Below, one piece after another: positions 6,987-58,023 of a DNA stretch of 64,000 nucleotides; the first letter of the stretch is position 1; every line of letters starts with the position of its first letter. Source of the DNA: Anaerolineae bacterium (GTDB lineage Bacteria; Chloroflexota; Anaerolineae; Aggregatilineales; Aggregatilineaceae). The DNA lies in contig JAHDLB010000008.1 of assembly GCA_018432315.1 (NCBI GenBank), positions 1 through 64,000 of the forward strand, in the 5' to 3' direction. The notes under the pieces were generated by a model. It did no database searches. It saw only the letters and a list, made by a program, of their open reading frames with translations, and was not told the origin of the DNA. Made by a program: the position numbers and the translations under genes.

Positions 6987-7077
6987 GGAGGGGTGCCAGA
7001 GTGGTTGATTGGGGCGGTCTCGAAAACCGTTGTAGCGTTTCACGCTACCGTGGGTTCGAATCCCACCCCCTCCGCCA
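6987..7077 (+). tRNA. tRNA-Ser (anticodon CGA), with encoded CCA
   Basis: The 91-base cloverleaf has acceptor GGAGGGG pairing with CCCCTCC, a long class II variable arm (GTAGCG/CGCTAC) as expected for Ser, a T-arm GTGGG-TTCGAAT-CCCAC, discriminator G and encoded CCA. The anticodon loop reads ctCGAaa between CGGT and ACCG, so it decodes UCG. It sits 20 bp after tadA and 6 bp before the next gene. Confidence 0.96.
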
Positions 7078-7083
7078 GATTTT

Positions 7084-8109
7084 ATGAAACTCCCGTCCTC
7101 ATCCACGCTTTCGCTCTCGTTTCTACCGGGCCAGACATTCGCGCTGGCCTTGTGCATTCTGGCCCTGATCGCCGGGGCGAGCGAGGCCGCCGCGCGGCTG
7201 TGGCTCGACGGTTCGAGCGTGCCGGTCGCCGTCGGCAGCGCGAATACCACCTTCGACCAGAAAATCGGGCTGCTCGACGACCTGGCGGCGCGCGAGGGCG
7301 GCGTCGACTGCATCCTGCTGGGCAGCTCGGTCGTGCTCAACAGCCTCGACCCGGCGCTGATCGCCGGGGCGTATACCGCGCGGGCCGGCCAGCCGCTGAC
7401 GTGCTTCAACTTCGGCATCCCCGCGCTCACCGCCAGGACCGGCGGGCCTATCGCCGAGCTGCTCGTCGAGCGCTACCGGCCCCGGCTGCTGGTCTATGGG
7501 CTGACGCTGCGGGCGGTGGCCGAGGGCGCGTCGGATTCGGGGCGCATCTACGCCGACATCACCGGGACGCCCTGGGTGCGCTACGAGCGCGGCGCGTTCT
7601 CGGTCACCGGCTGGCTGACGGAACACTCGTCGGCGTTCCGGCATTACCTCGCCTATCGCAACTGGATGAAGCACGAGTTCGCCAACCGCCTCAGCGAGCA
7701 CAAGCGCGCCCCGCGCAGCGGCTACACGCCGTTCGTTTCCACGCGCCCGCTCGACCCGGCGACGATCAGCACGCCGCCCTATTTCGATCCCTTCGCCTTC
7801 TCGCCCCAGGAACTGGCCGGGCTGGACCGGGTGCTGGCGCTGCACGGTCAGACGCAGGTCGTGCTGGTCGACATGCCGCTGCCGCAGTTCTTCCGCGAGC
7901 AGTTCGACGGCGGCGCGGGGGCGTATGCGGCGTACATCGACGAGCTGGGCGCGCGGGCCGCGGCGGCGGGTGTGCCGTTGTGGCAGACCAACCCGCTCGA
8001 CATGATCCCCGGTGACGGTTGGGCACAGGACGGGCAGCACGTCAACGCGACGGGCGCGCGCATCCTCAGCCGCTGGCTGGGCGAGCGGCTTGCGCATGGG
8101 GAGGGGTGA
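7084..8109 (+). CDS. Membrane-anchored SGNH/GDSL-like protein 1 (DltD/AlgJ-like)
   Basis: A 341-residue protein with an N-terminal membrane anchor (about residues 15-35) and an extracytoplasmic SGNH-type domain. The nucleophile block is LLGSSVV (Ser81/Ser82), and the C-terminal catalytic pair is Asp316/His319 in DGQHVNATGAR, the DxxH pattern of SGNH hydrolases. Such proteins partner MBOAT acyltransferases to move acyl groups onto surface polymers (DltD, AlgX/J, PatB types). It is followed at 6 bp by a paralogue and then by MBOAT and ACP genes, so they form one unit. The ATG is only six bases after tRNA-Ser and has no visible ribosome site, so the start is the weakest part. The acyl acceptor is unknown. 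Confidence 0.75.
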   Translation: MKLPSSSTLSLSFLPGQTFALALCILALIAGASEAAARLWLDGSSVPVAVGSANTTFDQKIGLLDDLAAREGGVDCILLGSSVVLNSLDPALIAGAYTARAGQPLTCFNFGIPALTARTGGPIAELLVERYRPRLLVYGLTLRAVAEGASDSGRIYADITGTPWVRYERGAFSVTGWLTEHSSAFRHYLAYRNWMKHEFANRLSEHKRAPRSGYTPFVSTRPLDPATISTPPYFDPFAFSPQELAGLDRVLALHGQTQVVLVDMPLPQFFREQFDGGAGAYAAYIDELGARAAAAGVPLWQTNPLDMIPGDGWAQDGQHVNATGARILSRWLGERLAHGEG

Positions 8110-8115
8110 TCTGCC

Positions 8116-9174
8116 GTGACGCTGCGACGACTCTGGCGCGACTATCGACCCCGCACGCTGAAGCTCACGCCCCCGGCAGGCTACACGCTCGTCCTGGCGG
8201 CGGCCTTCGTGGCGATCTACGTTCTCCTCATCGAGGCCGTGCTGCGCGTGCCCGCCGTCCAGTCGAGGCTTCCCGCGCCGAGCGTGCGAAACCAGCACGT
8301 CGACTTCGAGATCAAGCTCCAGCGCCTGCGCGAGATGGGGAGCGTAGACTGCGTATTTCTCGGCACCTCGATCGTGGATCGCGGCCTGAGCCCGGCGGAT
8401 TTCGAGCAGGCGTACCAGGCCGCTGCCGGGCAGCCGATCACCTGCTTCAACTTCGGCGTAGACGGCGCGGGCGAGTATACGGGCGTGCTGCTGGCGCAGT
8501 ATGTCACGCGCGTGGTACAGCCGCGCCTGCTCGTGTTCGGCGTGTCGCCCCGGTTGGGCAATGACGGGGATGGAGGCTCGCTGGCCGCGCTGCCCTGGCT
8601 CAAATACCAGCAGGGCCAGTTCTCGCTGCACGGTTGGCTGGCCGAGCATTCCAGGCTCTACGGTTACAGCCGCCCGCTGGTCAATGCCTTTTTCAATACC
8701 CTCAGCGGGGACAGGCGAGCGTATCTCGACCGGATGATCCTGGCGAACGGGTTCTATCCCACCGACGAACGCATCACATTTCCCATTCCGTCCGGCGATC
8801 GGGGCCGCCTGGAGCGCTCGAACTACGCGATTAGCGAGGCGTGGCTGAGCCGGCTGGACGAAATGCTGGCCTTTCACCGCCCCCCGCAAACGCGCGTCGT
8901 CATCGTCGAAATGCCGGTCCATCCCGTGGCGCTGGAGGGCCGCGCCGACCGGCAGAGCGACTACGCGGATTCGATGGCGGCGATCGGGGCGCGCACCGAG
9001 GCGAAGGGCGTCCCGTTTTTCACGACCAACCACCTGGAGGCGTTGGTCGCCGATGAGAACTGGGCGGACTTCAACCACCTGAACGCGACGGGCGCGCGGG
9101 TGATCAGCCGCTGGCTGGGCGAGCGAGTCGGTGAGGCGGTCGAGGAGGGGGCATTCGGGGCCCTCGCAGATTAG
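8116..9174 (+). CDS. Membrane-anchored SGNH/GDSL-like protein 2 (paralogue of the preceding gene)
   Basis: A 352-residue protein with a transmembrane segment at about residues 23-42 and an SGNH-like domain. The nucleophile block FLGTSIVDRGLS places Ser85; the C-terminal pair is Asp318/His321 in WADFNHLNATGAR. It shares with its neighbour the CFNFG segment, the YGL/FGV strand, GWLTEHS/GWLAEHS and the NATGAR-ISRWLGER ending, so the two arose by duplication. The start is GTG 8116 with GGGGAGGGG just upstream. MBOAT follows 12 bp downstream. Role: probable acyl-transfer partner or esterase acting outside the membrane; substrate not deducible. Confidence 0.78.
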   Translation: MTLRRLWRDYRPRTLKLTPPAGYTLVLAAAFVAIYVLLIEAVLRVPAVQSRLPAPSVRNQHVDFEIKLQRLREMGSVDCVFLGTSIVDRGLSPADFEQAYQAAAGQPITCFNFGVDGAGEYTGVLLAQYVTRVVQPRLLVFGVSPRLGNDGDGGSLAALPWLKYQQGQFSLHGWLAEHSRLYGYSRPLVNAFFNTLSGDRRAYLDRMILANGFYPTDERITFPIPSGDRGRLERSNYAISEAWLSRLDEMLAFHRPPQTRVVIVEMPVHPVALEGRADRQSDYADSMAAIGARTEAKGVPFFTTNHLEALVADENWADFNHLNATGARVISRWLGERVGEAVEEGAFGALAD

Positions 9175-9186
9175 GACGAAATCACC

Positions 9187-10611
9187 ATGACAATCACTTC
9201 ATTCTCATTCGCCGGGTACGTGCTGCTCGTCCTGGCGCTGTATTACGCGCTGCCGCGCCGCCCGCAGAATATCCTGCTGCTGGTCGCGTCGTATACCTTC
9301 TACCTGACGTGGTCGTGGTGGTACGCGCTCGTGCTGGCGATCCTCACGCTGGCGAATTTCGCGCTGGCCGGGCGCATCCGCGCCGGGGGAACGCCCCGGC
9401 GGGCCGCGCTGTGGGCCGGGGTGGGGATCAACCTGGCGGCGCTGGCCGTGTTCAAGTACGAGGATTTCTTCGTGCCGGACCTGCTTGCCCGGCTCGACAC
9501 CTGGGGCGTGGAGAGCGGCGCGGGCGGCCTGTCCGTCCTGCTGCCGGTCGGCATGTCGTTCTACATCGTCGCCGTGATCTCGTACCTGATCGACGTGTAC
9601 CGCAAGCAGGTCGCGCCCGCCACCGATCTGGTCGACTTCGCGCTGTACATGGCGTATTTTCCCAAGCTGCTGTCCGGCCCCATCGAGCGCGCGCGGGACT
9701 TTCTGCCCCGGCTGGCCGCGCCCCGCGTGGTGGACAACGACCAACTGGCGCGCAGCTTCACGCTCATCGTGCTGGGGGCGGTGCGCAAGCTGGTGCTGGC
9801 CGACACGCTCACGCTTATGCTGCCGCGCGGCGTGTTTGCCAATCCCGACCAGTTCGGCGCGCCCCAGTTGATCGGCTACCTGCTGATCTATGCCCTGGCG
9901 CTGTACAACGATTTCGCCGGGTACACCAACATCGTGCGCGGCGTCAGCGGCCTGTTCGGGATCGAGCTGGCAGCCAACTTCGCCACGCCGTATTTCTCGC
10001 GCAACCTGACCGAGTTCTGGAACCGCTGGCATATCACCCTGTCGCACTGGCTGCGCGACTACATCTACTTCCCGACCAGCCGCGCCCTGCTGCGCCGCAA
10101 TCCCAGCCGGACCAACGTGCCCAACCTGCTGCTGCCGCCGATGCTGACCATGCTCGCCAGCGGGCTGTGGCACGGCCCCGGCTGGAGCATGCTGCTGTGG
10201 GGCGCGCTGCACGGCGTCTACCTCGTCGGCGAGCGCCTGCTGGCCCTGTGGCGACCGGCAGGCCCGCCCCAACACCAACCGCGCTGGCGCCAGACGCTCG
10301 CTATGCTATTCGTGGTGACGCTGGTCGTGCTCGCCTGGGTGCCGTTCCGCACGCCGGACGTGCCGCGCGCCCTCGAATACTGGCAGGGGATGCTCGATTT
10401 CTCGGACCTGCGCCGCCCGACGGTGCGAGTTTTTGTTGTCATTCTGCCCGCATTGTGGTTAGACTGGGTGCAGTACCGGCGCGGTGACGAGCTGGTGTTT
10501 CTGCGATGGCCGCGGCTGGCCCAGGCGGCGCTGCTGGCGCTGGCGATCCTGGCGTTGTTCCTGACGAGCCAGGTCGACACCGGCGCGCCGTTCGTTTACC
10601 AGGGATTCTAA
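9187..10611 (+). CDS. MBOAT-family membrane O-acyltransferase (DltB/AlgI-like)
   Basis: A 474-residue polytopic membrane protein with family landmarks in order: LPVGMSFYIVAVISYLIDVYR (residues 120-139), YFPKLLSGPIERARDFLP (157-174), FWNRWHITLSHWLRDYIYFP (277-296) and GLWHGPGWSMLLWGALHG (326-343). His329 in GLWHG is the expected catalytic residue. MBOAT proteins such as DltB and AlgI pass acyl groups across the membrane to an outside acceptor. Here the gene sits between two SGNH partners and an acyl carrier protein, the same set as DltB, DltD and DltC. Which acyl group and acceptor are used cannot be told from sequence. Confidence 0.92.
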   Translation: MTITSFSFAGYVLLVLALYYALPRRPQNILLLVASYTFYLTWSWWYALVLAILTLANFALAGRIRAGGTPRRAALWAGVGINLAALAVFKYEDFFVPDLLARLDTWGVESGAGGLSVLLPVGMSFYIVAVISYLIDVYRKQVAPATDLVDFALYMAYFPKLLSGPIERARDFLPRLAAPRVVDNDQLARSFTLIVLGAVRKLVLADTLTLMLPRGVFANPDQFGAPQLIGYLLIYALALYNDFAGYTNIVRGVSGLFGIELAANFATPYFSRNLTEFWNRWHITLSHWLRDYIYFPTSRALLRRNPSRTNVPNLLLPPMLTMLASGLWHGPGWSMLLWGALHGVYLVGERLLALWRPAGPPQHQPRWRQTLAMLFVVTLVVLAWVPFRTPDVPRALEYWQGMLDFSDLRRPTVRVFVVILPALWLDWVQYRRGDELVFLRWPRLAQAALLALAILALFLTSQVDTGAPFVYQGF

Positions 10612-10633
10612 CCCGTTCGAGGCGGTGTACACC

Positions 10634-10885
10634 ATGGACCGAACCGAAGTCAAAGACAAAATCCGCACCTTCGTGCTCAACGAGCTGATCCGCAATCCCG
10701 GCTATGGCCTGGGGGACGACGAGCCGATGATCACCGGCGGCCTGATCGATTCCTTCTCGCTGGCCTATTTTGGTGTGTACGTCGAGGAGACGTTCGACAT
10801 CTACATCCCCGACACCGATCTGACGGTCGCCAACCTGGATACGCTCAACCAGATGGTCGACCGCGTGATGCAGGACGCGTCCTGA
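10634..10885 (+). CDS. Acyl carrier protein (DltC-like position)
   Basis: An 83-residue four-helix carrier domain. The phosphopantetheine site is Ser40 in GGLIDSFSL, matching the DSF form of the DSL motif. The protein is acidic, typical of carriers. ATG 10634 is preferred over GTG 10625 because GAGGCGG lies at the right distance. It follows the MBOAT gene by 22 bp. A carrier directly after an MBOAT gene recalls DltC, which hands a thioester-bound group to DltB. No adenylation (DltA-like) enzyme is in the window, so the loading enzyme and cargo are unknown. Confidence 0.87.
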   Translation: MDRTEVKDKIRTFVLNELIRNPGYGLGDDEPMITGGLIDSFSLAYFGVYVEETFDIYIPDTDLTVANLDTLNQMVDRVMQDAS

Positions 10886-10930
10886 AACGGGGCGCGCGTT
10901 CCGGTGTATGGCACCGGTAAAGGGCGGCGT

Positions 10931-12289
10931 ATGTGGCGGCGCGTGATAGTGGTTGCGGGAGCGGGGCTGCTCGCGGCGGTGGCGGCGAGCGCGTGCGGAT
11001 CCGGCGCGCCCGCGTCTGTCGAGGCGCCGCGCGGCCTGGAGCCGACCATCGCGGCGCAAGCGGCCTCGACCGAAACGCTCATTTCGTCGCGTAGCGCGGA
11101 CGGCGCTTTACCCGACCAGGCCGCGCAGGCCACGCCCACCCCACAGCCGACGCGCGATCCGCTCCGCATCCAGCTCTGGTGGCCCGACGAGTTATATCCC
11201 AAAGCCGATACCGACGCCGAGCGGGTGCTGCTCGACCAGTTCGACGGCTTCCGGCAGACCTACGCGACGTATAACTTCGAGGTGCGGCGCAAGCGCGCCA
11301 GCGGCCTGGGCGGCATCCTGCCCACGCTGCGGACGGCGCTCCCGGTCGCGCCGCGCGCCGTTCCCGACCTGACGCTGATGCGCCGCTCGGACATGCTCGC
11401 CGCGGCCACCGAGGGGCTGATCGTGCCGCTCGAAGACTGGCTGCCCACCGACATCCTCAACGGGCTGGTACCGGGCACGCGCGCGCTCGGCGAGATCGAC
11501 GGCGTGCTGTACGGGCTGCCCTACGTGCTCAATATCTATCATGTGGTTTACCGTTCGTCGGTGTTCGACGAGCCGCTGCTGAGCTTCGACGACGTGCTCG
11601 ACCAGGCGCCGGAATACCTGTTCCCGGCGGGTGCCGGGACGGGCACGCTCGTCAGTTGGACGGTCCTGCTGCAATACCTGGCGGCGGGCGGCGCGCTGGT
11701 GGATGCCGGCGGCAATCCGGCCCTGGATCGAAATGCGCTGCTGGCGGTGCTGGACTATTACGAGCGAGCCGTCGCGCTGGGCATCTTCGATCCCGCGTTG
11801 CTGGATTACACGCAGTTCGACGTGTATTGGGACGCCTTCGAGGCCGGTGAAGCGAACATGGTGATGGTCGACACGGCGACCTACTTCAAGCGCCGCGAGG
11901 ACGTGCCGAACGTCGGGCTGGCGCCGGTGCCGACGCACGACGGGGATTCGCTGACCGCGCTGGATGGCTGGATGTGGGTGCTGACCACGCAGGACCCGGA
12001 CCACCAGCGGCAGGCGCGCGCGTTCCTGTCGTGGATGATGCGCATCAACCAGCACAGCACGTTAACCGAGGCGCTGGGGATGCTGCCGTCGCAGTTGGGC
12101 GCCCTGCGCCTGTGGGACGACAGCGAATACGCCGCCTTCGCCCAGGACCTGCTCGCCACCGCGCGGATCATCCCGGCGGCCCAGCGCAACAACGCCGCCG
12201 CCGTGGCGCTCGAAAGCGCCCTGAGCGACGTGCTGAACGGGACGCCCGCCCTGCAGGCCGCCGAGGACGCGCTGGCAAGCCTCGATTGA
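10931..12289 (+). CDS. Extracellular solute-binding lipoprotein (ABC transporter family 1-like)
   Basis: A 452-residue lipoprotein. The signal peptide MWRRVIVVAGAG has a lipobox ending VAASAC near residue 21, followed by a Pro/Thr/Ala linker with TPTPQPT. The body resembles sugar-type periplasmic binding proteins: IQLWWPDELY, EDWLPTDILNGL, ALGEIDGVLYGLPYVLN and LDGWMWVLTTQ, then DPDHQRQARAFLSWMM. No permease or ATPase gene is adjacent, which is unusual for a functional importer; it may use components elsewhere or serve another binding role. ATG 10931 is preceded by AAAGGGCGG; an earlier GTG at 10904 would spoil the signal peptide. It lies 45 bp after the acyl carrier protein on the same strand. 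Confidence 0.82.
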   Translation: MWRRVIVVAGAGLLAAVAASACGSGAPASVEAPRGLEPTIAAQAASTETLISSRSADGALPDQAAQATPTPQPTRDPLRIQLWWPDELYPKADTDAERVLLDQFDGFRQTYATYNFEVRRKRASGLGGILPTLRTALPVAPRAVPDLTLMRRSDMLAAATEGLIVPLEDWLPTDILNGLVPGTRALGEIDGVLYGLPYVLNIYHVVYRSSVFDEPLLSFDDVLDQAPEYLFPAGAGTGTLVSWTVLLQYLAAGGALVDAGGNPALDRNALLAVLDYYERAVALGIFDPALLDYTQFDVYWDAFEAGEANMVMVDTATYFKRREDVPNVGLAPVPTHDGDSLTALDGWMWVLTTQDPDHQRQARAFLSWMMRINQHSTLTEALGMLPSQLGALRLWDDSEYAAFAQDLLATARIIPAAQRNNAAAVALESALSDVLNGTPALQAAEDALASLD

Positions 12290-12358: not shown

Positions 12359-12727
12359 TCAGGGCAGCAGCTTCTCGATCTCGTTCAACAGGTCCGGCAG
12401 GCGGAGCGGCTTGGTCAGGTAGATGTTGGCACCGGCCTGCATCGCGCGCTCGATGGCCTCGGATTCGGTGCGCGCCGAGATGACCACGACCGGCAGCGTG
12501 GCAAACGCGGGAGTGGACCGCAGGCGGCGGCACACTTCGAAGCCGTCGATGTCGGGCAGCATCAGGTCGAGCAGCAGCACGTCGGGATGTACCTGCCGGG
12601 CCGTGTCCAGGCCGGCCTGGCCGCTGTACACGCCGTGCACTTCGAATCCCTTCATCGTGAGAAACGTCGTCAGCAGGTCCACCATGGTGGGTTCATCATC
12701 GACGATCAGGACGGTTTTGCCAGTCAT
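12359..12727 (-). CDS. Single-domain response regulator
   Basis: A 122-residue receiver domain with no output domain. Asp10/Asp11 (IVDDEP), phospho-acceptor Asp54 (LLLDLMLPDIDG), the switch region VVVISAR and the Lys in LTKPL are all present, so it should be phosphorylated by a histidine kinase and act by protein contact, as in phosphorelays or motility-type signalling. No kinase gene is adjacent. It lies 18 bp downstream of the GNAT-like pair on the same strand, so it may be co-transcribed with them. It converges with the solute-binding lipoprotein gene. Confidence 0.93.
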   Translation of the reverse strand: MTGKTVLIVDDEPTMVDLLTTFLTMKGFEVHGVYSGQAGLDTARQVHPDVLLLDLMLPDIDGFEVCRRLRSTPAFATLPVVVISARTESEAIERAMQAGANIYLTKPLRLPDLLNEIEKLLP

Positions 12728-12745
12728 GGTTCCTCTCTCTGCTTG

Positions 12746-13921
12746 CTACCGGGGCGCCAGCGCCCGCTCGTAGAAGCGATACTGTCGATAGCGTTCTCCC
12801 CCCAACGCGAGGACCAGGCGGTCCATCGGCTCGTTGGTTTCCAGCACCCAGCCCGCGTCCGCCGAGCGCCAGATCGTTTCGTCGTACAGCTCCTGAAAAA
12901 TCTCGAACAGCCGGGCGAACAGGGCGGCCTCGACCCCGATGCCCCGGTACCCTTCATTCACGCCCAGCAGCGCGATGCGAATCCGCGCGATTTTGGGCCG
13001 GATCTTCCAGTGCCACAGCGCCTGGGCCAGGCTGACGATCTCCGGCTTGCCGGGCCGCGGATAGACGCGGTGCAGCACCTGGTTGAGGTCCGGGAACGCG
13101 AGCAAAAACGCCACCGGCTTATCCTCGACGGACGCGAACAGGGTCAGGCGCGGCTCCAGGAAGCGGCCCAGGTCTTTCACCAACTCGTCCAACTCCTCGT
13201 CGGAGAGCGGGACGAATCCCCAGTTGTCGTCCCACGCCTCGTTGTAGATCGCCCGCAGCGTCTCCAGCTCCGCCTTGACGCGCCTGCCGTCGAGCGTGCG
13301 CACGGAGATCTTGCGGCGGGCGTTGTTCCGGCGCGCCACGCGCAGCGCCTGTTCGAGCGACTTGGACGCGTGAAACTTCTCCAGCGTGAAGTGATAACTG
13401 TACAGGTCCATCACTTTGTCGAAGCCGGGCGCGTTGTCGAGCAGGCGCGGGTAGTACGCGTAATTGTACGGGGTCAGCACGGCGGGCACGGCGTCGTAGC
13501 CGTTGAGCAGAACGCCGCATTCGTCATTCGTCGAGAAGCTGGCCGGGCCGCGGATCGCGTCGTAGCCCATCCCGCGGACGTGCGCCGCTGCCGTGTCGAG
13601 CAGCGCGTTGGCGACGTCCTGGTCGTCGATGGACTCGAACAGGCCGAAGAAGCCGATGTGCTCGTGGTGGAACTCGTTGTGGCGGTGGTTGACGAACGCC
13701 GCCACCGTCCCCACGGGCTGGTCGCCGCGCCACGCCATGAAATACTCGCCTTCCAGGTGTTTCCAGGTGGGGTTTTTGCGCTTGTCGAGCTTGTGCCGGA
13801 CCATCGACACCAACTGCGGCACCCAGTACGGGCTGCCCCGGTAATGGGTCCACGGAAAGCGCAGGAACGTTTCGTAATCCGCCTTCGACGCCACCTTGCG
13901 CACAGAAACCGGCGCGACCAT
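12746..13921 (-). CDS. GNAT-fold protein, copy 1 of a tandem pair; function unknown
   Basis: A 391-residue cytoplasmic protein. The N-terminal part has VGTVAAFVNHRHNE and GFFGLFESIDDQDVANALLDTAAAHVRGMGYDAIRGP, which reads like a GNAT acetyltransferase core (strand plus acyl-CoA helix). The C-terminal half, with VAFLLAFPDLNQVLHR, EGYRGIGVEAALFARLFEI and AGWVLETNEPM, looks like a second degenerate GNAT domain. Proteins of this double-GNAT type are common in environmental genomes with no assigned substrate. It is closely similar along its length to the upstream neighbour. A GGGGAG site lies just before the ATG at 13921. Confidence 0.72.
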   Translation of the reverse strand: MVAPVSVRKVASKADYETFLRFPWTHYRGSPYWVPQLVSMVRHKLDKRKNPTWKHLEGEYFMAWRGDQPVGTVAAFVNHRHNEFHHEHIGFFGLFESIDDQDVANALLDTAAAHVRGMGYDAIRGPASFSTNDECGVLLNGYDAVPAVLTPYNYAYYPRLLDNAPGFDKVMDLYSYHFTLEKFHASKSLEQALRVARRNNARRKISVRTLDGRRVKAELETLRAIYNEAWDDNWGFVPLSDEELDELVKDLGRFLEPRLTLFASVEDKPVAFLLAFPDLNQVLHRVYPRPGKPEIVSLAQALWHWKIRPKIARIRIALLGVNEGYRGIGVEAALFARLFEIFQELYDETIWRSADAGWVLETNEPMDRLVLALGGERYRQYRFYERALAPR

Positions 13922-13945
13922 CGTCTCCCCTTTCCCCTCGTTCCC

Positions 13946-15103
13946 TCAGACCAGCGACCGCTGGTAAAAGCGGTAGCGTTTGTACAGCTCGCCGTTGAAG
14001 GCGTCGCACAGGCGGATCATCGGCTCGTTGGTTTCGAGCACCCACCCGCCATCGGCATATTCCCAGTTGCCCATCGCGATCGCCGCTTTGAAGACCTCGA
14101 CGAACATCGCGGACTCGACGCCGATGTTGCGGTAGCCCTCCTCGACGCCCATCAGCATCACGCGAAACCGCGTGAGCTTGGGGCGCACTTTCCAGTGCCA
14201 CAACACTTGCAGCAGGCTGACGATCTCCGGCTTGCCGGGCCGCGGATAGGCGCGGTGCAGCACCTGGTTCATGTCCGGGATGCCGAGCAGGAAGGCGACC
14301 GGCCTGCCATCGACCTCCGCGAAGAAGGCCAGCCGCGGCTCGAAGAACCGGCCCAGGCCCGCCACCATCTCGTCGAGTTCTTCGTCCGAGAACGGGACGA
14401 ACCCCCAGTTTTTCTCCCAGGCTTTGTTGTAGATCTGCTTCAGCTTCCAGAATTCCTCTTTCAGGTTCTTCAGGTCCAGCGTCTTGACGACGATCCCCCG
14501 GCGCTTGTTGTTCAGCTCGGTGACGCGCAGCAGCTTGGCGAATTTCTTCTCGGCGCGGTTGACGCCCTCCAGCGTGAACTTGTAGCTGTAGAGATCCATG
14601 ACCTTGTCGTAGCCGGGCGCGTTCTCGATCAGCCGCTGGTAGTACGGGTAGTTATACGGCATCAGCACGCGCGGTGGATCATCGAAGCCGTCGATCAACA
14701 GCGCGCATTCGTCGTTGGTCGAAAACGTGGCCGGTCCGCGGATCGCGTCGCAGCCCCGCCCGCGGACGTGTTCGGCGGCAGTTTCGAGCAGGGCGGTGGC
14801 GACGTCCTGATCGTCGATCGTGTCGAACAGGCCGAAGAAGCCGATATTTTCGCTGTAATACTCGTTGTGGCGGTGGTTGACGAAGGCGGCGATGGTGCCG
14901 ACCGGGCGGTCACCTTGCCAGGCGACGAAGTACTCGCCGTCCATGTGGTGCCACGAGGGATTCTTCTGCTGGTCGAGGTGCTCGCGCTTCATCGACAGCA
15001 GGGTGGGCACCCAGTACGGGTTGCCCCGGTAGAGCGTCCACGGAAAATTCACGAGAGCATCGCGCTCACGTTTGGTTTCGACCTTGCGAACGACGAGAGC
15101 CAT
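13946..15103 (-). CDS. GNAT-fold protein, copy 2 of a tandem pair; function unknown
   Basis: A 385-residue paralogue of the downstream gene with the same ordered blocks: PWTLYRGNPYWVPTLLSM, VGTIAAFVNHRHNEYY, GFFGLFDTIDDQDVATALLE, RGPATFSTNDEC, NWGFVPFSDEELDEM and GGWVLETNEPMIRL. ATG 15103 is chosen because the protein then aligns with the start of its twin and GGGAG lies about 11 bases upstream; the frame extends to a GTG at 15121. The pair is separated by 24 bp and clearly arose by tandem duplication. Substrate unknown. Confidence 0.72.
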   Translation of the reverse strand: MALVVRKVETKRERDALVNFPWTLYRGNPYWVPTLLSMKREHLDQQKNPSWHHMDGEYFVAWQGDRPVGTIAAFVNHRHNEYYSENIGFFGLFDTIDDQDVATALLETAAEHVRGRGCDAIRGPATFSTNDECALLIDGFDDPPRVLMPYNYPYYQRLIENAPGYDKVMDLYSYKFTLEGVNRAEKKFAKLLRVTELNNKRRGIVVKTLDLKNLKEEFWKLKQIYNKAWEKNWGFVPFSDEELDEMVAGLGRFFEPRLAFFAEVDGRPVAFLLGIPDMNQVLHRAYPRPGKPEIVSLLQVLWHWKVRPKLTRFRVMLMGVEEGYRNIGVESAMFVEVFKAAIAMGNWEYADGGWVLETNEPMIRLCDAFNGELYKRYRFYQRSLV

Positions 15104-15229
15104 ACAGTAGTTATCTCCCACCCGCGACGATGATGACAGGTTCCGACAATCTTACTGCGCATAGAACGGACGGCAAAAAACGGCCTTTGGTTGCTTTGTC
15201 CAAACTTTCTCAAAAACGGCGGTTTTCTC

Positions 15230-22565: not shown

Positions 22566-22823
22566 ATGCGGCGATTGCTGGCATTTTTCGGCGGGGTGCT
22601 CGGCGGGGGCGCGATCGGGACGGTGACCGCGCTGTTGTTCACGCCGGCGTCGGGCGACAGCATGCGGCGCGGGCTGCGCCGGCGCTACCAGGGCGCGCTG
22701 GCGGCGGGCCAGGCCGCCGCCGACCAAAAACGCCAGGAACTTGAGGCGCAACTGGTCGCCATGACCGGGCCGCACGCGCCCGACTCCCCAATGCTGAACC
22801 GCGACCGGCCCCCGGCGCGCTAA
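22566..22823 (+). CDS. YtxH-like small membrane-anchored protein
   Basis: An 85-residue protein. It starts with a Gly-rich membrane segment (LLAFFGGVLGGGAIGTVTAL), then the YtxH hallmark LLFTPASGDSMRRGLRRR, then an amphipathic Ala/Gln/Glu helix. YtxH proteins are general-stress-associated small envelope proteins of uncertain mechanism. A TATAAT box lies upstream. The gene end overlaps the convergent peptidase gene by 4 bp. Confidence 0.78.
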   Translation: MRRLLAFFGGVLGGGAIGTVTALLFTPASGDSMRRGLRRRYQGALAAGQAAADQKRQELEAQLVAMTGPHAPDSPMLNRDRPPAR

Positions 22824-24718
22824 TCCTCCGCCGGCTGGACGGTCAGCTTGTAGCGCGCCTCGGCGGACGTGAAGGGCGCCATCGCACCGACGACCAGGGT
22901 GACCGATCCGCCGTCCGGCACGGTGACCCGCGCCCGCCCGGTGTTCAGCGCGTCGAGCGCCACCCGCTCGACGGTCGTCCGGCCCGCCGGGCCGTGGGTG
23001 ACGACGGCGACGGTCCAGTGCTGGGGCACCGTGCCGGTGATGCGCAGGAAGCCGTCCGGCGCCCACACCGATTGATCGCTCTCGGCGTCGTCGCGGTAGC
23101 CCAATTCGGCGATCCCGACGTCGTCCAGCACCACGCCATCGAAGCTGGCCGTGCCGTCGGTCAGGTACTCGAAACGGATCAGCACCGGCCCGCCCGCGTA
23201 ATCGCTCAGGTCGATCCGCTCCTCGACCCAGCCCTCCGACTCGCCCGCGTAGTACAGGCCCGGCGCGTTCGAGCCGTCCCGCTGCGCCCGGTCGCCGCCC
23301 ACGATGCTCCAACTCGCGCCCCCGTCGCCCGAGACGAGCACGTGCAGCCAGTCGTATTCGTCCTCGATAGCCCACCACCCGTTGAAGACCAGCGTCGCCG
23401 CGTCCAGCCCGGCGAGATCGAACGCCCCGGTGAGGCGCGCCGCGCCATTGATGGCGTTGTACGACCACCACATCCCGCTGCCGGAGTGCGGCGTCATGCT
23501 CACTGGCGACGCCTGGTCGGCGCCGTCGAAGCTGACGTCGTAGACGCCGGGCCGGTCCAGGCGGCTGTACACCGCGCCGTACTGGTTGACGGACTCGAAG
23601 CGCGGGTAGGCCGCCGCCAGGTCGAGCGGGCGCGGGCGGATGCGGATCGGCAGGTCGAGCGTCTGGTAGTAGAAGCGCCCGTCGCCCACGTACGGATCGT
23701 CCAGGTAGTTCGCCAGAATCCAGTCGGCGAAGACCTCGTCGACCGAGGCCGCCGCGCCGGTTTCGACCAGCGCGTGCTGGATGCCCGCCAGCCCATCGTG
23801 AGGGTGTGACGCCATGTGGCGGATGAAATCCAGGCCGAAGCGCTCGTACAGGTACACGGTCCACAGGTAGGCCGCGCCGTAGTAGCGCCCCATGTCGTAG
23901 CCGGTGAGCGTCCAGCCGTTGAGGTGGTGATCCGGGTTGCGCAGGAAGTCGCGCATGTTCTCGCCGCTGATGTAGCGGGGATGGAACCCGGCCAGGTGCT
24001 CGGCGAGCTGGGACAGGCCCTCGTTGAGCCAGCGCTCCTCGTTGCCGTCCACGTGATGCTGGATCAGGTGCTGGTGCTCGTGCGTCAGCGTCGCCAGGTA
24101 CGGCTGCGAGTTGACCGGCGCGAGGTCCAGGTTGACGTACAGGATTTCGCGCTGGTTGCTGTCCGGGCAGAGGAACCGGGGGCACTGGTCCACCGGGTTG
24201 AACGCGCCCACGACGCTGGCGTTGATCGTCGCCTGGTGCAGAATGTGCAGGCGGCTGTCGCCATCGATGCCGGGGATCCACTCGTCGCCATAGATGGCGT
24301 TGTTCATCGGCCAGATGTGATCCTCGAAATAGCGCGCGGCAGCGTCCAGGCTCGCCTCGTCCACGCTCACGCCGTCCTCGAACCAGAAATAGGCGTGCTC
24401 GGTGCGGCTGTGCAGGACGAACGTCGCCAGCGCGCCCTCCGACGGGCTGAGGCCCCTGAACTGCTCGGTATCGCCCACGGCGTACTCGCGCGTGGGGAAG
24501 GGGCCGTAGACCTCGGCGTAGGTGCTGCGGCCCACGTCGATCAGCCAGTCGGCCTCCGAGCGAAAGCGCGGCACGCTCGGCGCGTCGTCCCAGGCCAGCA
24601 CGTCGGCGCGCTTGCCGTCCTGGGCGCGGGCAGGGGGCGCGATCTGCGCGGCCAGCGCCAGCGCGAGCAGCAGCGCGACGGCGATCCGGGCGGTGCGGCG
24701 GGTGGCGGGGGAAGACAT
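22820..24718 (-). CDS. Secreted HExxH metallopeptidase with C-terminal jelly-roll domains (copy 1)
   Basis: A 632-residue exported protein with a signal peptide ending near ARA-Q. The zinc site is THEHQHLIQHH (HExxH at about residues 213-217), followed by RWLNEGLSQLAEHL, in which the downstream Glu is the likely third ligand (gluzincin-like). The C-terminal half carries an immune-inhibitor-A/MAM-like domain (LDAATLVFNGWWAIEDEYDWLHVLVSGDGGASW). A short beta domain with VTVPDGGSVTLVVGAMAP follows. Start ATG 24718 keeps a good signal peptide with GTGAAAGG upstream; GTG 24736 is possible. The next gene upstream is a paralogue, so the pair was made by duplication. Substrates unknown. Confidence 0.85.
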   Translation of the reverse strand: MSSPATRRTARIAVALLLALALAAQIAPPARAQDGKRADVLAWDDAPSVPRFRSEADWLIDVGRSTYAEVYGPFPTREYAVGDTEQFRGLSPSEGALATFVLHSRTEHAYFWFEDGVSVDEASLDAAARYFEDHIWPMNNAIYGDEWIPGIDGDSRLHILHQATINASVVGAFNPVDQCPRFLCPDSNQREILYVNLDLAPVNSQPYLATLTHEHQHLIQHHVDGNEERWLNEGLSQLAEHLAGFHPRYISGENMRDFLRNPDHHLNGWTLTGYDMGRYYGAAYLWTVYLYERFGLDFIRHMASHPHDGLAGIQHALVETGAAASVDEVFADWILANYLDDPYVGDGRFYYQTLDLPIRIRPRPLDLAAAYPRFESVNQYGAVYSRLDRPGVYDVSFDGADQASPVSMTPHSGSGMWWSYNAINGAARLTGAFDLAGLDAATLVFNGWWAIEDEYDWLHVLVSGDGGASWSIVGGDRAQRDGSNAPGLYYAGESEGWVEERIDLSDYAGGPVLIRFEYLTDGTASFDGVVLDDVGIAELGYRDDAESDQSVWAPDGFLRITGTVPQHWTVAVVTHGPAGRTTVERVALDALNTGRARVTVPDGGSVTLVVGAMAPFTSAEARYKLTVQPAED

Positions 24719-24797
24719 GGCGTGTGCGCCTTTCACTCGGCGGTCTGGAGAGGGCGAGGGCGGGCGAACCGGCCCGCCCCCACGCGCGCGGGATGGC

Positions 24798-26792
24798 TTA
24801 TGGCAGCGGTTCCACGCTGAAGCTGTAGACGGCGGGCTCGGTCGTGACCGGCGCCAGGCCGGAGACGACGATCGTCGCGTCGCCGTAGTCGCCGCCCACG
24901 GTGAACTCCCAGTCGCCCTCCGGCGCGTCGTCCGGCCCCAGCCAGCGGATCACCGGCGCGTCCGCCTGCGCCGGCTGGACGATCTGCACCACGAACTGCT
25001 GCGGCAGGACGTTGTCCATCCGCACCCAGCCCGCGCTCGTCCAGCCGGCGTCGCCGGTTTCCGCGTCGTCGCTGAAGCCGATCTCCGGGACGCTGATGTC
25101 GTCGATCAACAGGCCGGGCTGCGTCACGGCGTCGTCGGTGATGTACTCGAAACGGACCTGAACGGTCTGGCCGGCGTAGGGCGACAGGTCGACCGTCTCC
25201 TGGATCCAGCCGCCACTCTCGCCCGTGTAGCCCGGCCCGTAGGCGTTGCTGTGCGGGTTGTCGTTGGTGGTGTGGGCCGTTTCCAGCGGGGTCCAGGTGG
25301 CGCCGTCGTCGGTCGAAACCATGACGTAAGCGTAATCCCACCCGCGCTCGATGTGGTACCACGTCCAATAGCTGAGCGTCGCCGCCCCGACCCCGGTCAG
25401 GTCGAAGGCGCGCGTCAGATGGCTGTCGCTCTCGTCGCCCCGGTTGGACCACCACATGTGCGTTCCGCTGTGCGCCTCCGCCGGGACGATGGACACCGTC
25501 GCGCTGCCGTCGAAGGTGAAGCGCAGGTGCTCCGGCTCGGTGCCGCCCACCACGCGCAGGTAGTGCGCGCCCCACTGCGGCGCGCCGAGCGTCTCGGTCC
25601 CCGCGCCGGGCGTCACCTGGCGGGTGATGCGCGCCGCGTTCAGCGCGTCCAGCTCGGAGAACGTGTACGTGTAGCGGCCATCGCCCACCGCCGGATCGTG
25701 CAGCAGGTTCGTGGCGACCCAGTCCGCGAACAGGTCCACCGCGGTCACCGGCTCGCCGGTGGCGGGATCGGTCGCGCCGATGGCGGCCAGCGCGTTATCG
25801 ACGCTCTCCATGCCGTTTGTCGGATCGCTGACCAGCGTGGTGGTCGCCGCCTCGCCATAGCGCTCGTAGAAATAGGCCGCGAACAGGAACGCCGCGCCGT
25901 AGTGCAGGCCGCGGTTGTCTTCTTCCGGCCACGTGTTGAGCTGGATGTCCGGCGAATTGAGGAACGGCGCGGCGAAGTTGCTGGCCCCATAGCCCGTGAT
26001 CAGCGCCGACAGCTCCGACAGGCCCTCGTTCAGCCAGGTGTCCTCGTTCTTGTCGACGTTCCAGTGCACCATGTGCTGGAACTCGTGGGCGAGCACGCCT
26101 TCGTAATAGGGCGTGCCGATGGCCCAGTCCATCGCGTCCAGGTTGACGAAGAACATCTCGCGCTCGTTGGAGTTGGGTACGGCGGCGGACGGGTACTGGC
26201 TGCTGCTGCCGTAGTACGCCGCCACCCACGATCCCAGGTTGCGCGCGTGCAGGATGTACAGGTGCGGGTCGCCGTCGATGCCGGGCAGGGCTTCCGTCCC
26301 GAAGACCTCGTGCACTTTGGGCCGGATCAGGTTCTCGAACGCGTCCGCCGAGCGCCGGACCGCGTCCGGGTCCACCTGCTCGCCGACCTCGACGAACATG
26401 TACACGTGGTCGGTCTTGTAGACCAGCTCGGCGTCCACCTCGAACTCGTAATCGGCGTCCAGGTTGTCCGCCCAGAAGGTCACCACGTCGCCAATCGGGC
26501 GCTCCGGCGGTGGGCTGGCCGGAGGGTCGGGGATCTCGGTCACGCCCAGCAGGCGCCTCGCCAGGTCGATCCGGTCGCGCGGGGGGATGATCGTGTTGCG
26601 CAGCAGGTCGAGCGTCGCGCTGCCGGGCGCGCCTTCGCTGGCGGGCACGCCGCCATCCTGGGCGACACCGTCCGCCGGCGGCAGCGCCGGGCTGGCGGCG
26701 ATTGGCCCCGGCGCGGCCAGCGCCAGCGCCACGACGCTCATCACGACCAGCGACAGCACGGCGCGAAATGGGAAACGAGATGGAGTTGACAT
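24798..26792 (-). CDS. Secreted HExxH metallopeptidase with C-terminal jelly-roll domains (copy 2)
   Basis: A 664-residue exported paralogue of the downstream gene. A signal peptide at residues 8-34 ends near AAS. The zinc site is LAHEFQHMVHW (residues 234-244, HExxH) with TWLNEGLSELSALI after it. The shared blocks are PGIDGDPHLYILHARN, NSNEREMFFVNLDAMDW, GAAFLFAAYFYERYG and VFADWVATNLLHDPAVGDGRYTY. Near the C-terminus an immune-inhibitor-A-like domain appears (TWYHIERGWDYAYVMVSTDDGATW). The start is supported by AAGGA seven bases before ATG 26792. It is divergent from fur across a 139-bp gap. It probably degrades extracellular protein; the exact specificity is not deducible. Confidence 0.86.
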   Translation of the reverse strand: MSTPSRFPFRAVLSLVVMSVVALALAAPGPIAASPALPPADGVAQDGGVPASEGAPGSATLDLLRNTIIPPRDRIDLARRLLGVTEIPDPPASPPPERPIGDVVTFWADNLDADYEFEVDAELVYKTDHVYMFVEVGEQVDPDAVRRSADAFENLIRPKVHEVFGTEALPGIDGDPHLYILHARNLGSWVAAYYGSSSQYPSAAVPNSNEREMFFVNLDAMDWAIGTPYYEGVLAHEFQHMVHWNVDKNEDTWLNEGLSELSALITGYGASNFAAPFLNSPDIQLNTWPEEDNRGLHYGAAFLFAAYFYERYGEAATTTLVSDPTNGMESVDNALAAIGATDPATGEPVTAVDLFADWVATNLLHDPAVGDGRYTYTFSELDALNAARITRQVTPGAGTETLGAPQWGAHYLRVVGGTEPEHLRFTFDGSATVSIVPAEAHSGTHMWWSNRGDESDSHLTRAFDLTGVGAATLSYWTWYHIERGWDYAYVMVSTDDGATWTPLETAHTTNDNPHSNAYGPGYTGESGGWIQETVDLSPYAGQTVQVRFEYITDDAVTQPGLLIDDISVPEIGFSDDAETGDAGWTSAGWVRMDNVLPQQFVVQIVQPAQADAPVIRWLGPDDAPEGDWEFTVGGDYGDATIVVSGLAPVTTEPAVYSFSVEPLP

Positions 26793-53777: not shown

Positions 53778-55145
53778 ATGCGCAAATTCGTCATAGAAGA
53801 TCACCACCTGATCACCCCGTTCAACGAGCCGGCCTGCGACCTGAGCATTCTCAACAAACCGCTGAAAATCCACCAGGCCGACGTGCTCGACGAGGCGCTG
53901 GGGCCAACCCCCGCCGAGCTGGCGCTGGAGTCGGTCCACGATCTGCCGAGCTTCGCCCCCGAGGGCGGGGAGATCGTGGTCTACCGCGACAACCTGTATT
54001 TCGACAGCGAGTTTTTCGGCGAGTTCTTCGACCAGGCGCGGGCCAGCCGCCTGCCCAGCCGCGCCGTGCTGCCCGCCGATGATGCGGCCTGGATGAAATA
54101 CAGCATCCCGCTGTCGCGCCTGAAGCCGGTCAAAGACGTCAACGGGCGCCCGCTGTATTACCCGCTCGACCTGTGGTATTTCCCCGATGGCTACGTCGCC
54201 GAGCGCCATTGGCGCGATATCCCGATCTACAGCGACTACAAAGAGAAGGGCTACTACAACGTCCCGGACTCGATGAGCAACCTGCGCCCCGGCGGCATGG
54301 ACGGCGAAGCGGGCCGCGACCTGGACCTGACGCACCTGCTCACCGAGCGCTCGTGCCTGTCCATCGATAGCTGGGTCCACGTGTATTTCGCCAACATCAT
54401 CCTGGGCGTGTTCTCGCGCGGGAGCCGCTTCGAGGAATACCTGGCCCGGCACAACCTTTTCGCGCTGACCGTGCTGTTCCGCGCCATCCTGGAGCAGAAG
54501 CAGGTGATCTCGTGCTCCAAGCTGGTGCAGGTGGGCGAGGGCACGATCATCGACCCGTCGGCGGTGATCCTGGGGCCGACCACCATCGGGCGCGGGTGTT
54601 ACATCGGCCCCGGCGTGGTGATCGACAACTCGGTGATCGGCGATAACGTGAACATCGCGCAGGGCTGCCAGCTCATGCTGAGCGTGGTCGGCAACAACTG
54701 CTTCCTGCCGTTTCGCGCGTCGCTGTTCATGTCCACGCTGATGGAGTACACCATCGTCGCGCAGAACACCTGCCTGCAAATGTGCGTGGTGGGGCGCAAC
54801 AGCTTCGTCGGCGCGGGAACTACCTTCACCGATTTCAACCTGCTGCCGGCCCCGCTGCGCGCGATGAACGCTTACGGCGAGCTGGAGGACACCGGCCAGC
54901 CCGTGCTGGGCGGCTGTGTGGGGCACAACACGCGGCTGGGATCGGGGCTGGTGATCATGCCGGGCCGCGTGATCGAGTCCGACGTGGTGCTGTTTGCCTC
55001 ACCGGAGCGCCGCGTGATCAGCCGCAACATCACGTACGAAGAGAGCGACCATCACAAGGTGCGCGCGTCGATTGCCCGGCTGCACAAGCGGCGCTACCCG
55101 CGCAGCGTCGAGTCCGAAGACGCGCTGTTCGAGCCGTGGGAGTGA
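53778..55145 (+). CDS. Left-handed beta-helix (hexapeptide) protein, GlmU-like layout
   Basis: A 455-residue protein. Residues 1-250 form an unusual N-terminal domain (CDLSILNKPLKIHQADVLDE) that might be a divergent nucleotidyltransferase, but the GlmU signature is not visible. Residues 255-400 carry hexapeptide repeats: GTIIDPSAVILGPTTIGRGC, VIDNSVIGDNVNIAQGC, CVVGRNSFVGAGTTF and GCVGHNTRLGSGLVIMPGRV. These form a left-handed beta helix typical of acyl- or nucleotidyltransferases of sugars. It precedes a membrane glycosyltransferase, so envelope-sugar synthesis is a reasonable guess. Confidence 0.75.
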   Translation: MRKFVIEDHHLITPFNEPACDLSILNKPLKIHQADVLDEALGPTPAELALESVHDLPSFAPEGGEIVVYRDNLYFDSEFFGEFFDQARASRLPSRAVLPADDAAWMKYSIPLSRLKPVKDVNGRPLYYPLDLWYFPDGYVAERHWRDIPIYSDYKEKGYYNVPDSMSNLRPGGMDGEAGRDLDLTHLLTERSCLSIDSWVHVYFANIILGVFSRGSRFEEYLARHNLFALTVLFRAILEQKQVISCSKLVQVGEGTIIDPSAVILGPTTIGRGCYIGPGVVIDNSVIGDNVNIAQGCQLMLSVVGNNCFLPFRASLFMSTLMEYTIVAQNTCLQMCVVGRNSFVGAGTTFTDFNLLPAPLRAMNAYGELEDTGQPVLGGCVGHNTRLGSGLVIMPGRVIESDVVLFASPERRVISRNITYEESDHHKVRASIARLHKRRYPRSVESEDALFEPWE

Positions 55146-56892: not shown

Positions 56893-58023
56893 TTGAACGA
56901 CACTTTCGCCTTCATCATTCACCCGATCGATCCCAAGGCCGACGTCGCGCGCAAATACCCGCTGCTCGGCAAAATCCTGACCGAGGGTCAGATCAACTTT
57001 TTCTCGCGGTTCTTCCCGCCCGTGTACATCTCCGAGATCACTGGCGTGCGGTCGCAGGCGACCGGAAACGAGCTGACGGGCTGGTTCATCGCGTGCCCGT
57101 TCACGCCCAAGACCATGCTCAAGCTGCCCGTCGAGGCGGTGTACCGCAAGATCGTCGCGTGCGGGGGCCTGGCCGACAAGCTCGGCGCGCGGATGCTGGG
57201 CCTGGGCGCCTATACGTCCGTCGTGGGCGATGGCGGCGTCACGATCGCCGAGCGGTTGGCGATGCCGGTCACGACGGGCGACGCCTACACGGTGTATATC
57301 GCCGTGGCGGCGGTCCGCGAGGCCGCGCGCCGGATGGGGATCAGCATGGCGGGCGCGTCCGCTGCTGTCGTCGGGGCGACCGGCGCCATCGGCAGCGTGT
57401 GCGCCCAGGTGCTGGCCCGTGAAGTGCCGGACCTGATCCTGATCGGGCGGCGCGAGGACCGGCTGGCCTCTGTCGGCGAGCAGTGCGCCGGCCACATGGC
57501 GCGCGTCACGACCAGCACCGACGTCGCCAGCATCTACCGCGCCGACCTGATCCTGACCGTGACGAGCGAACCCGCCGCCATCATCCAGCCGGAGCACCTG
57601 AAGCCGGGCGCCGTGGTGTGCGACGTGGCCCGCCCGCGCGACGTGTCGCACCGGGTCGCCGAAGTGCGCGACGACGTGCTGGTGATCGAGGGCGGCATGG
57701 TCGAGGTGCCCGGCCCGGTCGATTTCGGGTTCAACTTCGGGTTCCCGCCCGGCAAAGCCTACGCCTGCATGGCCGAGACGATGGCCCTGGCGCTCGAAGG
57801 GCGCTACGAGGATTACAGCGTTGGCAAGCAGATCGCGCTCGAACAGGTGGAGGAGATCGGCGCCCTGGCGACGCGGCACGGCTTCCGCCTGAGCGGCTTC
57901 CGCAGCTTCGAGCGGGCCGTCACCGACGAGCAGATCGACGCCATCCGCCAGCGGGCCGCCGAGGTGCGGCGCGGGCGGCGCGGCGTGGCGACCACCATCC
58001 CGGCGATCCATCCGCGCGGGTGA
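56893..58023 (+). CDS. Homologue of cyanobacterial long-chain acyl-ACP reductase
   Basis: A 376-residue Rossmann-fold protein. Blocks shared with cyanobacterial AAR (my recall of the family) are LGLGAYTSVVGDGG (AAR has ALGGFTSI), PVTTGDAYTVYIAVAAV (TTGNTHTAY), AAVVGATGAIGSVC (VVGATGDIGS, the NADPH loop at residues 158-170), RREDRLASV, VIEGGMVEVPGPVDFGFNFG and KAYACMAETMALALEG. Cys292 aligns with the AAR catalytic Cys in MFACFAEA. AAR reduces fatty acyl-ACP to aldehyde. The length is somewhat longer than the usual 340. No aldehyde-deformylating oxygenase gene is adjacent, so alkane formation cannot be assumed. The start codon is TTG with AGGGAA upstream. Confidence 0.82.
   Translation: MNDTFAFIIHPIDPKADVARKYPLLGKILTEGQINFFSRFFPPVYISEITGVRSQATGNELTGWFIACPFTPKTMLKLPVEAVYRKIVACGGLADKLGARMLGLGAYTSVVGDGGVTIAERLAMPVTTGDAYTVYIAVAAVREAARRMGISMAGASAAVVGATGAIGSVCAQVLAREVPDLILIGRREDRLASVGEQCAGHMARVTTSTDVASIYRADLILTVTSEPAAIIQPEHLKPGAVVCDVARPRDVSHRVAEVRDDVLVIEGGMVEVPGPVDFGFNFGFPPGKAYACMAETMALALEGRYEDYSVGKQIALEQVEEIGALATRHGFRLSGFRSFERAVTDEQIDAIRQRAAEVRRGRRGVATTIPAIHPRG

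Follow-up and report, generated by a model that had tools for sequence, protein, structure and literature searches.

In the 64,000-nt stretch of DNA analyzed here, henceforth the window, two SGNH proteins, an MBOAT acyltransferase and an acyl carrier protein (ACP) are encoded side by side, and we lean toward reading the whole as a carrier-fed transmembrane acyl-transfer relay that serves a cell-surface acceptor. Because the ACP-linked MBOAT carries a fused FVYQGF terminus, lacks a GG[N/S] loop and co-occurs with a fatty-acyl-AMP ligase (FAAL), the locus is probably a hybrid of elements that the literature assigns to two distinct systems, with Dlt-like carrier feeding, a Pat/Alg-like fused tyrosine shuttle and a FAAL replacing DltA. 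The interpretation given in the initial annotation is supported in part; it had overlooked the C-terminal acyl-shuttle motif that sets this MBOAT apart from DltB.

The nearest named relatives of the genome place it in the class Anaerolineae of the Chloroflexota. The four genes form a tight run on the forward strand (7084-10885), and the ORF coordinates bear out the previously described intergenic gaps of 6, 12 and 22 bp. Two flanking genes had escaped attention. The first is a tRNA-Ser(CGA) gene (6987-7077, +; ARAGORN) that ends 6 bp upstream of SGNH1 and is, in the window's family, a kept neighbor between tadA and the ACP block. The second, the first gene 3′ of the ACP, encodes a solute-binding lipoprotein (SBP_bac_8; 10904-12289, +), found directly 3′ of the ACP in nearly all same-family relatives, with or without the MBOAT cassette. 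Since homologues in relatives share the same arrangement, we regard the four-gene order as more than chance. Elsewhere in the window, we noted two adjoining secreted paralogues that contain InhA-like MAM domains (22820-26792, −) and a hexapeptide-repeat transferase-like gene (53778-55145) upstream of a gene (56893-58023) related to long-chain acyl-ACP reductase (TIGR04058, 132 bits, under the cut-off) and to the N-terminal part of PigE.

The MBOAT (9187-10611, +) is the only one found in the whole genome and matches PF03062 with an E-value of 1.6e-18. Its AlphaFold2 model (pLDDT 88) has DltB as the closest solved folds (Z 29.9 and 29.8), the next family following at Z 23; the match at Z 29.9 spans 377 residues with an rmsd of 3.4 and leaves about 70 C-terminal residues outside. 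Despite DltB being the best fold match, the protein scores only 177 bits against the DltB equivalog TIGR04091, below the cut-off of 375. His282, His329 and Tyr471 are invariant across phyla in the homologue alignment.

Tyr471 lies in the C-terminal hexapeptide FVYQGF (residues 469 to 474; 10591-10608, +), an instance of the FXYXXF acyl-shuttle motif, and is invariant, as is Phe469, both among 11 close homologues and in a wider aligned set of 32. Among the loci fetched by MBOAT, 109 of 117 MBOATs end in FXYXXF. As defined previously, this motif is borne by the separate DltX in the Dlt system and is typically fused to the enzyme in CoA-fed MBOATs (PMC12148441). A six-frame search of the window for ORFs of ≥20 aa found none other than the MBOAT with an FXYXXF end, and hence no separate DltX. 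Given that the MBOAT beside the ACP itself ends in FVYQGF, carrier and fused shuttle are combined here. Counting against carrier feeding, several homologous MBOATs have the same C terminus but no nearby ACP (L048-L053). In other families, A-type MBOATs near an ACP-FAAL pair (L067, 9411-10838; L111, 10150-11589; L113, 8354-9796; L115, 8541-9968) lack a C-terminal FXYXXF, and no DltX-like FXYXXF peptide was found near them among ORFs of ≥20 aa. MBOAT relatives also occur on 26 IMG/VR viral contigs (L198-L223), one of which (L221) has a DltA-DltB-DltC-like run and is possibly host sequence.

A second feature of the MBOAT is the helix formed by residues 283 to 304 (..WLRDYIYFPTSRALLRR; 10033-10098, +), which aligns with the DltB segment that docks DltC. 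In the Dlt system, DltC rests on a horizontal DltB helix with Met302, Val305, Ile306, Met309 and Lys312, plus Arg317 (PMC11035591). Most surveyed MBOATs have a glycine-rich loop (IPLGG[NS]) at this position; the window MBOAT reads FPTSRALLRR, an unbroken helix in the model. In the MBOAT survey, an ACP lay within 4 kb of none of the 108 MBOATs with GG[N/S] versus 15 of the 36 without it, the ACP being credited, in the survey locus with two MBOATs, to the one it abuts. Since some loci had been fetched around the ACP, we repeated the count on MBOAT-fetched loci alone, where the contrast persisted (0/106 versus 3/7, p 1.5e-4). Of the DltC-contacting positions, M302-F295 and M309-L302 (DltB to window) stay hydrophobic, and V305-S298, I306-R299, K312-N305 and R317-N310 are unmatched. 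With the DltC contacts only partly conserved, we treat the helix as a correlate and not as proof of docking.

The ACP (10634-10885, +) comprises 83 aa counted from the ATG at 10634, with an in-frame GTG at 10625, and has its predicted phosphopantetheine site at Ser40 (10751-10753). It matches Pfam weakly (0.017), NF052616 at 6e-12 and the carrier PltL in the PDB at 6e-7, and falls below both DltC equivalogs (TIGR01688, 14.9 versus 52.35; PRK05087, 22.1 versus 68). An AcpS-type PPTase is encoded in the genome.

What might load this carrier? No adenylating gene or DltA is linked within the window's ACP block, and no DltA, linked or otherwise, was found in the genome above the cut-off, the best TIGR01734 match reaching 134.5 bits versus 559.85. 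The proposal of a Dlt-like logic that does without DltA is supported. The accompanying suggestion, that an enzyme encoded elsewhere charges the carrier, possibly with a fatty acid or a different acyl group, gains a candidate among the six AMP-binding genes of the genome: P0001 (G000:C3:125053-126777), a predicted FAAL-class ligase on a contig other than the window's, whose orthologue adjoins the orthologous ACP in the order's other families. P0001 is 61-65% identical to the ACP-adjoining ligases of four genomes (G030, G033, G038 and G041) whereas the paralogues from its own genome with a blastp alignment reach just 22-28%. In the PDB it matches FAALs (3kxw, 7r7g, 3pbk and FadD32) ahead of every other class, and FAAL-related models lead its NCBIfam matches, all below their cut-offs. 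By sequence, P0001 groups with the FAAL class, its nearest relatives being FAALs and not CoA ligases or enzymes that adenylate amino acids. Enzymes of this class form an acyl-AMP, transfer the acyl group to holo-ACP and reject CoA.

We surveyed gene order in 61 genomes, the window's own and 60 relatives. ACP and ligase are never adjacent within the window's family. Outside it, they are direct neighbors in 24 of the 30 genomes that hold both, and in two of the other six the ligase lies at a contig end. Three loci (L046, L047 and L055) show contiguous SGNH and MBOAT genes, then the ACP, then the ligase, which in L046 and L055 is truncated where the contig stops. With a FAAL-class ligase linked in these relatives, the absence of a loader beside the window's ACP is a loss of linkage, and the missing loader, which the initial annotation had taken as a defining feature, is not one. 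As for a linked DltA homologue in relatives, named there as evidence against the proposal, a linked adenylate-forming ligase is indeed present, albeit of the FAAL class and not DltA.

FAAL, ACP and MBOAT are retained and lost together across the order. Among the 61 genomes, 46 have both FAAL and ACP, two the FAAL only (these being 75% and 73% complete), none the ACP only and 13 neither; here we scored the weak ACP matches in G020, G027 and G028 (E 2e-8 to 7e-14) and a weak ligase match in G047 as absences, and the partial G059 ligase at the contig end of L046 as a presence. For FAAL and MBOAT the corresponding numbers are 43, 5, 1 (MBOAT only) and 12, the losses falling in several different families. 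Counting against the relay, four genomes from the window's own family encode FAAL and ACP, yet no MBOAT was found in them. Class-wide, in 121 genomes, an MBOAT occurs in 23 of 25 genomes with a FAAL versus 11 of 96 without (p 2e-14), and outside the window's order in 18 of 20 versus 11 of 95, all these counts and p-values being uncorrected for kinship.

Turning to the SGNH proteins, SGNH1 (7084-8109, +) consists of an N-terminal membrane helix and an SGNH domain with Ser82/Asp316/His319, and SGNH2 (8116-9174, +) is its paralogue at 35-39% identity, with Ser85/Asp318/His321. These residues agree with those initially assigned, as do His329 of the MBOAT and Ser40 of the ACP; the exception is the SGNH1 nucleophile, given as Ser81, which is Ser82 of the GxS motif G80-S81-S82. 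Up to an E-value of 1, neither protein has a Pfam or NCBIfam family match other than chance ones, so we checked the fold of SGNH1 by structure prediction. The model (pLDDT 85) shows an N-terminal helix (residues 15 to 41) and an SGNH hydrolase fold, and its Foldseek matches are SGNH/GDSL hydrolases, with DltD having the top query TM-score among the matches listed (0.49). Structural re-ranking against the PDB does not settle the subfamily, as general GDSL esterases lead and DltD is absent from the best 50.

Tree and alignment place the tandem SGNH duplication separately in the window's family, in G059 and in G026, that is, in at least three independent events, and the serine and DxxH are retained in nearly all complete copies. 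Relatives have one or two copies, many of them a single one. The doubling is thus real, yet not the defining feature it had been taken for. Since two SGNH-like proteins, AlgJ and AlgX, have distinct roles in alginate acetylation (cited in PMC12148441), a division of labor between SGNH1 and SGNH2 is plausible by analogy.

How does the locus compare with known systems? DltB (MBOAT), DltC (carrier) and DltD (SGNH), together with the adenylating DltA, attach D-alanine to teichoic acids. Like the Dlt set (DltA-DltB-DltC-DltD-DltX), the window has a carrier, a DltB-fold MBOAT, a membrane-anchored SGNH protein and a tyrosine shuttle motif; unlike it, it has an MBOAT-fused shuttle for DltX and two SGNH proteins outside the DltD sequence family, and the counterpart of DltA is a FAAL-class ligase encoded elsewhere in the genome. 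With MBOAT and ACP also far under the DltB and DltC cut-offs, we reject a Dlt D-alanylation system. The locus does show the features of MBOAT-SGNH acyltransferases, namely an MBOAT domain with the catalytic His329, a C-terminal FXYXXF and an adjoining SGNH protein with Ser and DxxH. It resembles the PatA/PatB and AlgI/AlgJ/AlgX O-acetylation systems in joining an FXYXXF-ending MBOAT to SGNH, alginate too having two SGNH-like proteins, but differs in that the run includes a carrier, a dedicated FAAL co-occurs and a helix replaces the GG[N/S] loop. MBOAT-SGNH pathways besides Dlt have no carrier protein and are presumably acyl-CoA users (PMC12148441), and we found no report of an ACP-linked MBOAT-SGNH system in the open-access literature. 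Lastly, lipopeptide and polyketide pathways likewise pair a FAAL-class ligase genomically with a free-standing ACP; in contrast to these, the pair described here is predicted to feed a membrane acyltransferase and not a polyketide or peptide synthase.

The order of the genes, their folds and key residues, the C-terminal hexapeptide, and the co-occurrence and linkage seen between genomes are observed here; we infer each catalytic step of the following relay, along with its donor, cargo, acceptor and the SGNH division of labor. The FAAL-class ligase would activate a carboxylic acid, probably fatty or otherwise lipophilic, as acyl-AMP and then load the acyl group onto the phosphopantetheine at Ser40 of the ACP. 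The loaded ACP would dock at helix 283-304 of the MBOAT on the cytoplasmic face, after which His329 would help the acyl group cross the membrane to Tyr471 in the MBOAT's own FVYQGF tail. From the resulting acyl-tyrosine, the group would pass to the catalytic serine of one or both SGNH proteins, which are predicted to be anchored in the membrane on its outer side. The SGNH proteins would then transfer it onto hydroxyl groups of a polymer at the surface, a glycan or another, possibly with a separate acceptor for each.

It is possible, if somewhat doubtful, that the same relay carries a small or polar acid instead (a hydroxy acid, an amino acid or a short chain), with the substrate of the FAAL-class ligase having changed. 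Known MBOAT-SGNH pairs carry acetyl or D-alanyl groups (PMC12148441), and carrier-linked MBOATs with small-unit loaders do exist elsewhere. In the Bacteroidota, a Chryseobacterium locus (L149, 3266-7685) and an Aquimarina locus (L191, 2-3373) combine, as the window does, a carrier with a fused shuttle. In both, the gene order is putative loader, ACP, MBOAT with an FXYXXF end, SGNH; the loaders, named from sequence rather than by profile, differ from the FAAL proposed here, being an FkbH-like gene and an adenylation domain, respectively. Against a small cargo, the ligase of the window's genome falls with the FAALs by both profile and PDB matches, and long chains are transferred by eukaryotic MBOATs.

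An unlikely alternative is that the SGNH and MBOAT genes make up a standard O-acetylation cassette of the PatA/AlgI type, fed by CoA, which inserted after the tRNA-Ser and ahead of a preexisting ACP-SBP block, with ACP and FAAL serving another pathway such as lipid N-acylation by two nearby GNAT proteins. The ACP-SBP block does occur without the cassette in many members of the window's family (e.g., L098-L102), from which it follows that the ACP had another partner or use there. Some of these cassette-less genomes have an A-type MBOAT without the C-terminal motif and in a few no MBOAT was found, which leaves room for the CoA-fed alternative. A search for cassette remnants in relatives without the cassette gave no convincing match, with one of 11 residues in G004 (E 0.06), and in G005 the ACP lies on a different contig from MBOAT and SGNH. 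Two tandem 391-aa GNAT proteins, encoded with a response-regulator receiver protein at 12359-15121 (−), follow the ACP-SBP block in many same-family relatives, and the top NCBIfam match of the ACP is an ornithine-lipid pathway carrier, though at 45.7 bits versus a cut-off of 130. Moreover, the fused FXYXXF, so far shown for the CoA-fed PatA, is typical of such enzymes.

What argues against this alternative is the order- and class-wide co-occurrence of FAAL, ACP and MBOAT, the contiguity of MBOAT, SGNH, ACP and FAAL in other families described above, and the window MBOAT's lack of the GG[N/S] loop seen in ACP-less MBOATs. Outside the window's family, no GNATs were found beside ACP-FAAL. In addition, the cassette abuts the ACP in two differing upstream contexts, tadA-tRNA in L042 and a cold-shock gene in L038. 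The idea that the tRNA-Ser, as a mobile-element site, explains the link to the ACP was rejected, because cassette and ACP are still joined in L038 and L039, where this tRNA is missing.

It is very improbable that the carrier is loaded by another ligase, G000:C51:118025-119122, which adjoins a carrier gene and gives the 134.5-bit DltA-model match, since that second ACP is its own neighbor and distant from the window's (24.8 bits), and since the ligase, which resembles those linked to exosortases, stays far under the 560 bits required by the DltA model.

Returning to the carrier-fed relay, this locus and its relatives speak for the compatibility of carrier feeding with a fused tyrosine shuttle, contrary to the published account (PMC12148441). 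They likewise argue that a fatty-acyl-AMP ligase can replace DltA and that the cargo may exceed acetyl or alanyl groups. We tentatively raise the possibility of a third class among bacterial MBOAT-SGNH systems. It would be fed by a carrier, have a fused tyrosine shuttle and draw on interchangeable loaders, a FAAL in Anaerolineae and FkbH-like or adenylation domains in Bacteroidota, to bring fatty or unusual acyl groups to surface polymers; its donor type might be read from the docking helix, by whether the GG[N/S] loop is there. If that marker holds, annotators could sort MBOATs by donor. For a phylum with poorly known envelope chemistry, the analysis singles out one particular loader, one tyrosine and one docking helix.
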